DNA from: Vulcanisaeta distributa JCM 11217
Lineage (GTDB): Archaea; Thermoproteota; Thermoprotei; Thermoproteales; Thermocladiaceae
Length of the DNA stretch: 64,000 nt
Assembly: GCF_001316005.1 (NCBI RefSeq)
Contig: NZ_BBBJ01000009.1
Coordinates: 1-64,000, forward strand
Direction of reading: 5' to 3'
Shown: positions 41,634 to 45,687 of the stretch, piece by piece
Layout of the letters: each line of letters begins with the position of its first letter
How positions within the stretch are numbered: position 1 is the first letter of the stretch
The notes under the pieces: model-generated
What the model was told of the DNA's origin: nothing
The model's input: only the letters and a program-made list of their open reading frames with translations
Databases searched by the model: none
Position numbers and translations under genes: made by a program

Positions 41634-42861
41634 ATGGATTTCGACTTTAGTAGGGAGGAGGCTCTGTTTAGGGATTCGGTTAGGGAGTTTGGCGAGCGTT
41701 ACATAAAACCGCACTGGGTCGATCTTGACGAGGGCAGGTACTCACTCCTTGACTTAATACCTAGGCTTGCCGAGCATGGTCTAGTTGGTTTAACACTCAG
41801 TTCTAAATATGGTGGTTCGGAGGGTTCCTTTCTAATGGCGGCAATAGCCGCTGAGGAGTTGGCCTACGCAGACCCGAGCCTAGCGGTCCCGGTATACTTC
41901 CTACTGGAGACCGCCTGGCCCTTCATAGTTCAGCGTTACGCTAAGGATAGTGTTAAGGAGGAGGTCTTGACGAGGCTAACTAAGGGTGAGGCTTGGATTG
42001 GTATAGCGTCTACTGAGCCCCAGGGAGGTAGTGACGTGGCTGGTGAAAGGACCGAGGCAAAGCTCGTCAATGGTAAGTGGCTCCTCACGGGTGAGAAGAA
42101 CATGGTGACTGGCGTTTCAATAGCCCTTAGGTTGCCCTATGGTGGTGGCTTCGTAACAATAACGAGGACGGGACCTCTCGAGGCTAAGCATAGGGCCATA
42201 ACGACCATGCTATTCATGGTCAAGAGGAATGGGGGGGTTGTTAACACGGGATTTGAAACGAGGGATTACGAGGAGTGGGGGGGTAGGAGGGGGGGAATAC
42301 CAACCGGTTACCTGAGGCTTAATGGTGCACCTGTGGATCCTGAGTTCGTGCTTGGCGAGGTGAATAATGGGTTTAAGATAGCCATGGAGGCTTCGATGTG
42401 GCCAGGACGTTAATTGGCGCCGCGGCCCTTGGAACTGCCCGTTGGATGCTTGAGCAGGGCAGGGAGTGGATTAGGAGTAGGGTTGTCTTTGGTAAGCCAA
42501 TCTCCTCATACCAATCAGTAAGCTTTAGGTACGCCGAGCTAAGCACAAGGCTTGAGGCTGCCAGGCTCATGGTATATAGGGCTGCCTGGCTTGCGGATAA
42601 GTTCTATAGGGGGGGTGATTCCTCGGTTTCCATACTCGATGTTGCCAATGCAGGGGGCTATGGCCAAGATGCTCGCCGTGGAGTTGGCCATAGACGTTGG
42701 CCTAGAAGTCATGAAGTGGTTTGGCGGCGTTAGCTACTTCAAGGAAACCCCAATAGCCAGGGCATTCCTAGGAGCTGAGCTACTACGTTGGTGCTGAGGG
42801 AACACAGAACATAATGAGATTAATAGTGGCAAGGGGATTAATAGGTAAGGAAGTGGAATAA
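41634..42861 (+). CDS. Acyl-CoA dehydrogenase, frame broken three times
   Basis: FAD-dependent alpha,beta-dehydrogenation of an acyl-CoA. About 408 residues: LTLSSKYGGSEGSFLMAAIA, WIGIASTEPQGGSDVAG with FAD-binding Ser/Thr, LTGEKNMVTGV, and the C-terminal GQGREWIRSRVVFGKPI-like region (EQGREWIRSRVVFGKPISS). The catalytic-Glu region reads GAEGTQNIMRLIVARGLIG at the end. Breaks: a lost G near 42390 (AMEGFDVARTL), G5 at 42653-42657 (ANAGAMAKML) and near 42785 (ELYVGAEG). Five G7 tracts add Gly (for example EEWGGRRGGIP). Substrate unknown. Ends 38 bases before a convergent gene. Confidence 0.85.
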
Positions 42862-42898
42862 TCACGTGCCTCATCGATGAATTATCATTCCTCTAAAA

Positions 42899-43366
42899 TT
42901 ACACAGTTAATAGGGATAGTACGTACATGATCCTCACGTCAACGAAAGCCTCAATAAACGCCGCAACCGCAATAACCATTGCCGTGATTACTACGCACCT
43001 AACAGTGATGGTTTCGGAAGTCATTCTAACTACCCTACCCATCGCGTACAATTCCAGGGTACCATGTGGAATCATTGAGACAAGGCCGGCAATCCCGTAG
43101 GGTGTGGTTAATAATCCAGCCAAGACTCCGTATACATATATAAAAATAGTGACATAACCCCCCCTAGAGTACTGGCTTATTAAGTAAAGTGCCGCAAACG
43201 CCGCGGAATTGGTCACCAACACCCACAGGAATAGCCTAACCTCAAAGCTTATGCTAAGCAATACCGCTGATACCCTAACAACATCAAAGGCCTTAAAGAC
43301 AAGACCTCCAAGCAGTAAGCCCGTCATTACGCCTAATACGAAGAAAGTAACTATGTTCTTAAACAT
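42899..43366 (-). CDS. SpoIIM-like (DUF95) polytopic membrane protein
   Basis: 155 residues, five hydrophobic segments. MIPHGTLELYAMGRV is the HGxxEL signature of the SpoIIM/DUF95 family, members of which occur as conserved membrane components of circular-bacteriocin operons in Firmicutes and as uncharacterised proteins in archaea. ATG 43366 overlaps the stop of the upstream protease gene by eight bases, so the two are translationally coupled; a longer frame to 43396 is open but adds a Cys-rich stretch that is protease coding in another frame. C7 at 43158-43164 adds a Gly. Confidence 0.72.
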   Translation of the reverse strand: MFKNIVTFFVLGVMTGLLLGGLVFKAFDVVRVSAVLLSISFEVRLFLWVLVTNSAAFAALYLISQYSRGGYVTIFIYVYGVLAGLLTTPYGIAGLVSMIPHGTLELYAMGRVVRMTSETITVRCVVITAMVIAVAAFIEAFVDVRIMYVLSLLTV

Positions 43367-44774
43367 GGTAAAACACCAAGAACATCCCAAGGACAACCAG
43401 AGACACTATTACGAGGGTTATGTAGGTGGCCACTGAGACGAGTAGGGATTGTCTCACGGACCTTAGGAATAGCGTTAAGAAGAGGGTTAGGGTCGCGAAG
43501 GCTATTGGTGTAGGCGCTGCTAGGGTCAACAGTGGGTAATGGTTGTCGAGGAATAGCCTAAGTAGTCCAAGGGCTATTGAGTAAGTCATGACGTAGAAGG
43601 CGATAGACCAGGCAGTCATTGAGTAGACACCATAATCATTAATGGGCTTAGTTAGGGCTTTAACAATGGGCTTACCAATAACAGCGAAGAGCATTAGAGT
43701 GCCGAATGAGGCGACGAAGGTAAGGAAGTAAACAACCGTGGCTGAGTAAGGAGGATTCGACGAGTAGGGGGGGAGTAGGGAGATGAACTTAGGACCAAGG
43801 ACCTGGACAGCCAATGATAAGGAGACTGCACTCGATATGGCTGACGCAGGCAGTGCCAATGCCCACGGCGGTAATAGGGAGAATGGATTGCGGGAAATAA
43901 TAAACCTCCTAAAGTCGGGGTGAACAAAGCTTATTAATGAGAGGTCTAGGTACGTAAATGGATAAATCAGGATAAGCGGCACCATGGCTAATTTGCCATA
44001 ACGAGCCCTCACACGCCACATAAACTCCCTAAACCTCTTAGTAAATTCACTCACGTTCATGACGCTTTTCCTCCTTAACAATACCGATGGGGGGGCACGA
44101 CCAACGCTGTAGTAAGCGGTGAGATCCGCAAGCGCCTCATCAAGCATGGGATACACTAAAATGGTTATTGAAAAGAACATAATAAAGCTGCCATAAAGTA
44201 AAAACGTAAGTGAGTAACTCTCTATTACATTGATATGATGGTAAAGCGTCAATAATGCAATTAAATAATCAAAGGGCATTACGAGTACCGCGGCGGTCAT
44301 CGTAATAACCATAGTCCTAATTAACGACCACCTTATATGATGCTCTTCATGCATCAGAACAGCCCTATAATCTATGGGGGGGTCGCCGGCTATATCCTCC
44401 GATACAAATATCACATTGGGAATCCTAAGCACCATACCACCAACGGCCTCGCCTAAATTAGTGGCGCCACTCACGATATACACGGCATCTTTACAGGGAC
44501 CAGGCAAGACACGGCATGGCAGTAGGCGGAAAAGATCAAATACTATGAATATGAGTAAGATAGACATTACATTAATAAAATAAGCCATGAATGAAGTATA
44601 TAAATTAAGTCCCCATTTAATTAAGATTGAGGAAGAAATACTAAATAATGCTGATGCCCATGAAATCTCAACCCCCAACGATCGCGCCATGATAGACAAG
44701 GGTACATAAAGTGTACGATATTTCTTATAAGTATTTAGGTTTATTTTTAATATTTTATACCTATACATAGTCAC
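43359..44774 (-). CDS. Membrane zinc metalloprotease (M48/M56-like)
   Basis: 471 residues, about ten hydrophobic segments. AVLMHEEHHIRW at about residues 138-149 is an HExxH zinc site embedded near transmembrane helices, and LDEALADLTAYYS at about 216-228 has the ExxxD pattern that supplies the third ligand in M48/M56 proteases. Such membrane proteases cut signal or precursor peptides. It lies 14 bases after the small hydrophobic peptide gene and overlaps the SpoIIM-like gene, forming a three-gene operon. Four G7 tracts (43767, 44089, 44376 and C7 43158 downstream) lie in the operon; this frame is intact. Confidence 0.78.
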   Translation of the reverse strand: MTMYRYKILKINLNTYKKYRTLYVPLSIMARSLGVEISWASALFSISSSILIKWGLNLYTSFMAYFINVMSILLIFIVFDLFRLLPCRVLPGPCKDAVYIVSGATNLGEAVGGMVLRIPNVIFVSEDIAGDPPIDYRAVLMHEEHHIRWSLIRTMVITMTAAVLVMPFDYLIALLTLYHHINVIESYSLTFLLYGSFIMFFSITILVYPMLDEALADLTAYYSVGRAPPSVLLRRKSVMNVSEFTKRFREFMWRVRARYGKLAMVPLILIYPFTYLDLSLISFVHPDFRRFIISRNPFSLLPPWALALPASAISSAVSLSLAVQVLGPKFISLLPPYSSNPPYSATVVYFLTFVASFGTLMLFAVIGKPIVKALTKPINDYGVYSMTAWSIAFYVMTYSIALGLLRLFLDNHYPLLTLAAPTPIAFATLTLFLTLFLRSVRQSLLVSVATYITLVIVSLVVLGMFLVFYHV

Positions 44775-44788
44775 ACATCAAATAAGAA

Positions 44789-45106
44789 CTATGCGAGATA
44801 TATACCAAGGCCGATGAGAGCTGCTCCACCCGTACCAAGAGCTACAGCTGCCCATAATGGCAATGTCTCATCAATAGCGATATAAAGTAAAGTGGCTCCT
44901 ACTCCAGCAAACCCGGCGCCTCCCCCCCCAACATAACCTGCACCTGCACTTGCCCAGGCTGGGTTTCCGGTTTGCTGGCTCTCTAAATATAATTCTATCC
45001 CTATTATATGCGGCATCACTGGCATCATTGCTATTGCTATTAATGTCAGCGCAGCCATGGCCTTTATCGCATCTTTCTTAAGATCAGGAATATTACTTCT
45101 CATCAT
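44789..45106 (-). CDS. Gly/Ala-rich hydrophobic small protein, possible bacteriocin-like precursor
   Basis: 105 residues. A charged N-terminal about 15 residues (SNIPDLKKDAIKAM) precedes a hydrophobic helix (about 17-36), then ESQQTGNPAWASAGAGYVGG, a Gly-rich stretch, and two further hydrophobic helices (about 65-78 and 84-104). No Cys. The layout of a leader, helix-rich Ala/Gly core and no charged tail resembles precursors of circular or other membrane-active bacteriocins, and its operon partners are an HExxH protease and a SpoIIM-like protein. No sequence match to a known bacteriocin is claimed. C8 at 44922-44929 probably adds one Gly. A TTTATTAATTA stretch about 35 bases upstream may be its TATA box. 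Confidence 0.6.
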   Translation of the reverse strand: MMRSNIPDLKKDAIKAMAALTLIAIAMMPVMPHIIGIELYLESQQTGNPAWASAGAGYVGGGGAGFAGVGATLLYIAIDETLPLWAAVALGTGGAALIGLGIYLA

Positions 45107-45279
45107 TATAATTATAAAGTTATTTTGACTAATTAATAAACATTACGCCATCATATTTATAATTTTTGTAAATTATTGATAATCACTGATGAGCATAATG
45201 CCACGACTATTCACAATGCTTAGCTCACATAATGCTGTGAGAATAATTTTTAAAGCATAATGTGCATTCTCTCACTAAT

Positions 45280-45687
45280 ATGGGTCAGCAATCCGTAACG
45301 CCGCGTACTGCTTACATACTCTCGTTAATAGGTAGTATATTAATGGTGATAAGCTCGATAGCGGTTCTAATATTTGCGGGGATGTTAATGGCGATGCCCC
45401 CCCACTTCTATGCGTTTCATAGGTTTGGTTATTACCCAATGATGTCCATAATACCGTTGGCGCCTATTTTCTTCGTAGTCATAGGAATAGTGGGTCTCGT
45501 AGTGAGCGTACTAGCTATGTACTTCTCCCTGAGACTTAGTAGGTTGAGTGACGTGAATGCCGTGCATAGTACTGGCATTGTGCTTTTAATACTGGCGATA
45601 ATTGGCTTATTCGTGGCGAATGGCTTCTTCATAGGCTTCATACTACTCCTCATAGGCTCAATACTGGCCATCACGTGGAAACCATAA
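45280..45687 (+). CDS. Four-helix membrane protein, unknown
   Basis: 135 residues from ATG 45280 (a GTG at 45262 is also in frame). Four hydrophobic segments at about 12-34, 50-75, 90-112 and 113-135. TTTTTAAAGCATAA at about 45246-45259 is a probable TATA box, which places the mRNA start near 45280. No family recognised beyond a general resemblance to DUF4064-like archaeal membrane proteins. It is divergent from the peptide/protease operon and may be its immunity partner, but that is only a guess. Confidence 0.62.
   Translation: MGQQSVTPRTAYILSLIGSILMVISSIAVLIFAGMLMAMPPHFYAFHRFGYYPMMSIIPLAPIFFVVIGIVGLVVSVLAMYFSLRLSRLSDVNAVHSTGIVLLILAIIGLFVANGFFIGFILLLIGSILAITWKP

Follow-up and report, generated by a model that had tools for sequence, protein, structure and literature searches.

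A co-conserved accessory cassette of Vulcanisaeta encoding a small hydrophobic protein, an M48-type membrane protease and a SpoIIM-like protein, best read as a peptide-maturation unit

The stretch of DNA analysed here (the window; 64,000 nucleotides) belongs to Vulcanisaeta draft genome G000, which is 67% complete, and its nearest named relative found was V. distributa JCM 11216. Three minus-strand open reading frames in the ORF list span positions 45106 to 42899 and encode, in this order, a putative precursor of 105 aa (44789-45106), a multi-pass membrane metalloprotease of 471 aa (43359-44774) and a SpoIIM/DUF95-like membrane protein of 155 aa counted from its ATG (42899-43366). A preliminary description of this DNA had proposed a Cys-free precursor-like protein with a charged leader, followed after 14 bases by a protease with HEEHH and DEALAD motifs and, across an eight-base overlap, by a protein with a SpoIIM/DUF95 signature, and we found the genes, spacing and motifs as it described them. 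The eight-base overlap holds for a SpoIIM start at ATG 43366; the frame can also reach an upstream TTG at 43396 (ORF 42899-43396), which gives an overlap of 38 bp. The ATG is the better start, because the G055 orthologue starts at the same codon. None of the three window proteins significantly matched Pfam on its own sequence, and their family assignment could be settled because paralogous cassettes exist in other Vulcanisaeta genomes.

The three genes lie within an inserted segment (42858-45235) that is absent from the related genome G051. By blastn of the window against G051, homology ended at position 42857 and restarted at 45236, with about 15 bp between these points in G051. An acyl-CoA dehydrogenase gene (41634-42733, split by a frameshift at about 42400) and a divergent four-helix ORF (45262-45687, plus strand) flank the segment, and these two genes adjoin without a cassette in seven other Vulcanisaeta genomes (G051, G053, G054, G056, G058, G059 and G060); G061 lacks the acyl-CoA dehydrogenase gene too. 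The four-helix gene is therefore a constant neighbour of the site, at which about 2.4 kb carrying the cassette has been gained or lost. This gene had been noted earlier together with the cassette, and its position and orientation stand; it does not belong to the system, because genomes that lack the cassette have it too. In its gains and losses the cassette resembles a conflict system.

The SpoIIM-like protein was assigned with a jackknife profile built without the window protein or its close orthologues. Among the 120 window ORFs, the SpoIIM-like ORF was the top and only significant match to this profile (E=3.4e-12), and it carries the motif PHGTLEL, so that both the profile match to PF01944 through relatives and the PHGxxE motif are present and its place in SpoIIM is firm at the level of the family. 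Cassette SpoIIM proteins from other loci exceeded the PF01944 cut-off directly (L025, 1.5e-15; L027, 5.4e-9; L026, 7e-8). G000 also contains a second, ordinary SpoIIM gene (C5:64198-64665), apart from the cassette copy.

The membrane protease carries HEEHH at residues 142-146 and DEALAD around residues 212-217, the HExxH and downstream Glu zinc ligand of family M48. H142, E143, H146, E213, A216 and D217 were invariant across 17 relatives. Pfam Peptidase_M48 (PF01435) was matched by 6 of 10 protease relatives (best 3.4e-8; the L130 protease scored 21.2 bits against a cut-off of 20.3), and the window protease, too diverged to match Pfam alone, joins M48 only via these relatives. It aligned with the cassette-protease profile over residues 98-465 with the zinc motifs in register (hhalign E=2e-12, probability 97.7). 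A wider profile from 12 relatives scored the window ORF at 25.9 bits, and a seven-member jackknife profile did not list it. Single-sequence queries with the window protease found essentially only close Vulcanisaeta copies; this query was too narrow, and paralogue profiles were therefore used. The AlphaFold model of the protease was weak (pLDDT 64.6), with no significant PDB relative. In G061 and in Thermoproteaceae-like genomes, relatives of the protease occur alone, with neither precursor nor SpoIIM. Those of the Thermoproteaceae-like genomes (L067-L070), a possible housekeeping form, mostly adjoin a conserved gene pair encoding a 210-aa and a 9-TM protein.

Protease profiles were run against 398 Thermoproteota genomes, the 31 genomes of a Sulfolobaceae-like family and the 229 genomes of its class, and returned a narrow, patchy set of genomes. 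Co-occurrence of the three genes elsewhere had been suggested as a check on the preliminary description, and we found about 14 precursor-protease-SpoIIM cassettes, all with one order and strand, in Vulcanisaeta and the Sulfolobaceae-like family. The three-gene cassette is a real, co-conserved accessory unit. Vulcanisaeta copies occur in the window (one), G052 (three; C24, C2, C1) and G055 (two; C11, C18), and the other copies in G297 (two, with L131 decayed), G377 (two), G228 (one), G336 (two, with the L076 SpoIIM truncated) and G412 (one, L130, with SpoIIM damaged). In the Sulfolobaceae-like family 5 of the 31 genomes carry cassettes, and the class search recovered the same five. Precursor-protease gaps range from 0 to 14 bp and protease-SpoIIM spacings from -38 to 99 bp, the -38 becoming -8 with the ATG start. 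All three frames are open in seven cassettes (window, L025, L071, L072, L073, L074 and L129). Frameshifts in the other Vulcanisaeta copies, among them those in the L027, L028 and L062 precursors, look like homopolymer sequencing errors, because ordinary neighbouring genes are broken alike; such frameshifts affect many genes of G000, G052 and G055 and are probably sequencing errors. Decaying copies comprise L131 and the SpoIIM genes of L076 and L130. At L131:2881-5255 (G297), a truncated precursor and a protease in three pieces lie beside an intact SpoIIM-like gene. G056 has precursor and protease, and no SpoIIM was found there.

Nothing besides SpoIIM, one protease and one precursor recurs in the cassettes. 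We found no ABC transporter in the cassette or adjacent to it in the window and recognised none among the flanking ORFs read at L071-L074, L129 and L130, and we identified no separate immunity gene in the cassette. At L129:1377-2975(-) and L074:1666-3263(-), a second small hydrophobic leader-bearing protein (MITTVV..EETEIDIKKAIK.SLLMTFFLVA.P) is encoded divergently to the cassette, with a gene for a nine-helix protein of about 400 aa behind it; this pair is possibly a second peptide module. A patchy, decaying, insertion-type distribution would also suit an antiviral or toxin-antitoxin-like module, in which the protease, upon infection, would free the small membrane protein to act as a toxin inside the cell. 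However, a PADLOC search, which gave no match and led us to reject a known defence system, no meaningful PHROG match, and no relative in the viral contigs or plasmids searched leave such a module only a very slim chance of being correct.

The small protein of the window contains no Cys and has orthologues in L008 (94%) and L003 (49%). It consists of a charged hydrophobic leader of about residues 1-33, ending in MMPVMPH, and a Gly/Ala-rich acidic core of about 72 aa that ends in LGIYLA; the division was placed after the proline region, at a predicted cleavage site. Precursors of other cassettes share this build: a short positive start leads into a hydrophobic helix that stops close to a proline, and the core after it often has a Gly-rich hydrophobic end. 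With cuts placed by the same prediction, all 10 precursors measured have a leader-like part of 28-36 aa with charge +1 to +3 and a core of 51-82 aa with charge -1 to -6 and GRAVY 0.9-1.6. In a test of homology between the Sulfolobaceae-like and Vulcanisaeta precursors, an HMM did not pick out the window precursor, and hhalign of the precursors of the two lineages gave 26% probability, over the leader alone. Judged from their sequences, the precursors of Vulcanisaeta and of the Sulfolobaceae-like family are equivalent by position and build, with homology not demonstrable. AlphaFold gave an all-helical, four-helix model of poor quality (pLDDT 61.5, pTM 0.36), and fold comparison with this low-confidence model returned no significant PDB match. 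Holin, light-harvesting and pilin-type matches were rejected as weak and WD-repeat PDB matches with the core as chance; a TrbC/VirB2-like pilin identity was discarded, there being no VirB4/VirB6 neighbours and no significant match.

These features bear on whether the locus encodes a circular bacteriocin proper, a special case of peptide maturation in which the two ends of the core would be linked, as they are in gassericin A and AS-48, and the M48 protease would serve as leader peptidase and perhaps also as ligase. SpoIIM counts as the partner that defines the class of circular bacteriocins (PMC13289728), and the core resembles that of group ii members in its size of about 70 residues, its hydrophobicity and its low pI (PMC6131525). 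The window core ends in Ala, as in group 4, and a Pro precedes the possible cut by a few residues, a feature of group 3 (PMC8659200). However, PF12173, PF09221 and TIGR03651 found no match at E up to 10 among 8 precursors, no precursor was similar to any known bacteriocin family, an ABC transporter is missing, no confident saposin-like fold was obtained, and the last core residue varies across cassettes (A, V, G, L, C). We consider a circular bacteriocin in this strict sense unlikely.

Upstream of the precursor, a promoter-like element (TATTAATTAGTCAAAATAA; 45120-45138, minus strand) lies 13 bp 5' of the ATG and is conserved in Vulcanisaeta cassettes. The pattern TATWWATYAGWYRAAAYAA is found about 7-18 bp 5' of the precursor start in the Vulcanisaeta cassettes for which upstream DNA was available, and it has a single match within the window when up to 2 mismatches are allowed. 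Across 12 Vulcanisaeta genomes there were 14 exact matches, compared with 1 for a reversed control, and 7 of the 14 lie at cassette precursors. Recovery of cassettes is by construction, because the pattern was derived from them, and the finding is its rarity elsewhere. The seven non-cassette matches precede mainly small or signal-bearing proteins. These include a conserved peptide of 64-78 aa (..LLPxYRAPPPxLGGGTW..; L184:2838-3567, L181:6383-7091 and L183:5398-6029), which has its own two-helix partner and, in L184 and L181, lies about 2.6-2.9 kb upstream of a cassette.

The sharing of this 19-bp element across copies suggests co-regulation. Together with the adjacency of protease and precursor, it is what would be expected if the protease freed a peptide pheromone sensed by kin. 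We think such a signalling role very unlikely, as no receptor or regulator was seen beside the cassette copies read, at 50-80 residues the core would be a large pheromone and a very hydrophobic one, and single genomes (G052, G055) carry several different cores.

We compared evolutionary rates among the parts of the cassette. Between the window and G055, identity is 75% in the leader, 38% in the core and 71% in SpoIIM. The core had a dN/dS of 2.35 for the pair L072/L073 and 1.09 for L074/L129; in these two Sulfolobaceae-like pairs, SpoIIM gave 0.11 and 0.12 and the protease 0.54 and 0.33. Pooled replacement:silent counts were 48:14 for the core, 32:51 for SpoIIM and 233:165 for the protease (Fisher, core vs SpoIIM p=4e-6; core vs protease p=0.005). 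The pair of the window and JCM 11216 alone gave no rate contrast between core and SpoIIM. A test for a core ratio beyond the neutral value gave no significance (p=0.38), and both diversifying selection and relaxed constraint could therefore underlie the divergence of the core.

M48 proteases such as HtpX serve membrane quality control, and the small protein could instead stay unprocessed and serve the protease as an integral subunit or adaptor in a membrane proteostasis or regulatory complex, with SpoIIM as scaffold. It is hydrophobic enough to remain in the membrane, its poor model is that of a four-helix protein, and stand-alone relatives of the protease exist. However, the small protein changes more quickly than the protease and far more quickly than SpoIIM, no homology could be detected between its versions in the two lineages, and genomes can do without the whole unit, as the clean empty site shows. 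This makes a complex of this kind rather unlikely in our view.

The three-gene cassette is best read as a peptide-maturation cassette with a putative antimicrobial action. On balance, at slightly better than even confidence, we take it for an accessory maturation unit for a ribosomally made hydrophobic peptide whose core would act on competitor membranes. The positively charged N-terminal helix of the leader would insert the precursor into the membrane, the dedicated M48-type membrane protease would cut the leader off near its terminal proline, and the SpoIIM-like protein would assist in the release or folding of the core (roughly 70 residues, acidic, Gly/Ala-rich) or in tolerance to it. Export, toxicity and self-protection are predicted steps of this scheme, and an action of the core on the membranes of competing archaea would explain why the core changes fast and why the cassette is patchily distributed. 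The product is best read from the genes as a secreted or membrane-active peptide, probably antagonistic in function and matured by its own protease. Counting against maturation are the missing bacteriocin-family match, ABC ATPase and separate immunity gene, the poor precursor model, the two lineages' precursors that are not homologous by HMM, a core dN/dS that relaxed constraint would also explain, the missing rate contrast in the pair of the window and JCM 11216, and the stand-alone protease relatives. The earlier proposal of a peptide-antimicrobial or signalling system gains from the co-conservation, the conserved leader with variable core, the SpoIIM partner and the gain and loss of the unit; its parallel with circular bacteriocins is weakened by the same lack of family match and transporter. 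If the maturation reading is true, it would add an unstudied peptide-weapon system to hot-spring archaea.

In the literature searched, which does not include the likeliest prior survey of such systems (Makarova et al. 2019, mBio), we found no description of the cassette, and its novelty is provisional. Bacterial circular-bacteriocin clusters comprise a precursor, an ABC transporter, SpoIIM and an immunity gene (PMC8659200, PMC6131525), SpoIIM being found in every cluster (PMC6131525). Members such as AS-48, gassericin A and enterocin NKR-5-3B share with the cassette a small hydrophobic leader-bearing precursor and a SpoIIM/DUF95 gene, as well as an accessory distribution, and in group ii the core is alike in size, hydrophobicity and low pI (PMC6131525). 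Their leaders have 2-48 residues and their cores about 60-70, compared with 28-36 and 51-82 predicted for the cassettes. In contrast, every archaeal cassette adds an M48-type protease and lacks an ABC transporter and a separate immunity gene, and archaeal precursors have no sequence-family match; the archaeal leader is conserved and the core variable, whereas bacterial groups show the reverse pattern (PMC8659200). We did not file the cassette as a circular bacteriocin because it failed both the sequence-family and the transporter tests.

Archaeal SpoIIM proteins (arCOG01994/PF01944) share family and PHGxxE motif with the cassette member, but are mostly stand-alone or, in euryarchaea, paired with the 7-TM protein arCOG02177 (PMC5898192), whereas the cassette form is short and tied to a protease and a peptide. 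With HtpX/Ste24 M48 peptidases the cassette protease shares the HExxH ... E arrangement with a following AD and a multi-pass membrane build; it differs in its long C-terminal membrane half, which has its own conserved positions, and in its operon link to one substrate candidate. The epipeptide system EpeX/EpeP likewise encodes a peptide with a membrane metalloprotease thought to cleave and export it (PMC10885120), but EpeP belongs to family M50 and its substrate is a short modified peptide, and no modifying enzyme was seen in the cassette.

M48 or M50 peptidases occur in a few circular-bacteriocin clusters (PMC8659200), and according to reviews no leader peptidase or cyclase is known for circular bacteriocins (PMC8659200, PMC6131525). 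The cassette protease is a candidate for the cutting enzyme that bacterial circular-bacteriocin operons lack. One version of a minimal archaeal circular-peptide system, in which the M48-type protease removes the leader and, with SpoIIM, joins the core ends without an ABC transporter, appears quite improbable; if true, it would identify the long-missing maturase of SpoIIM-dependent peptides. The cassette may work like the SpoIIM-dependent circular bacteriocins, and the maturation of SpoIIM-associated peptides is testable here because SpoIIM recurs with a single dedicated protease and a single precursor and with no other gene.
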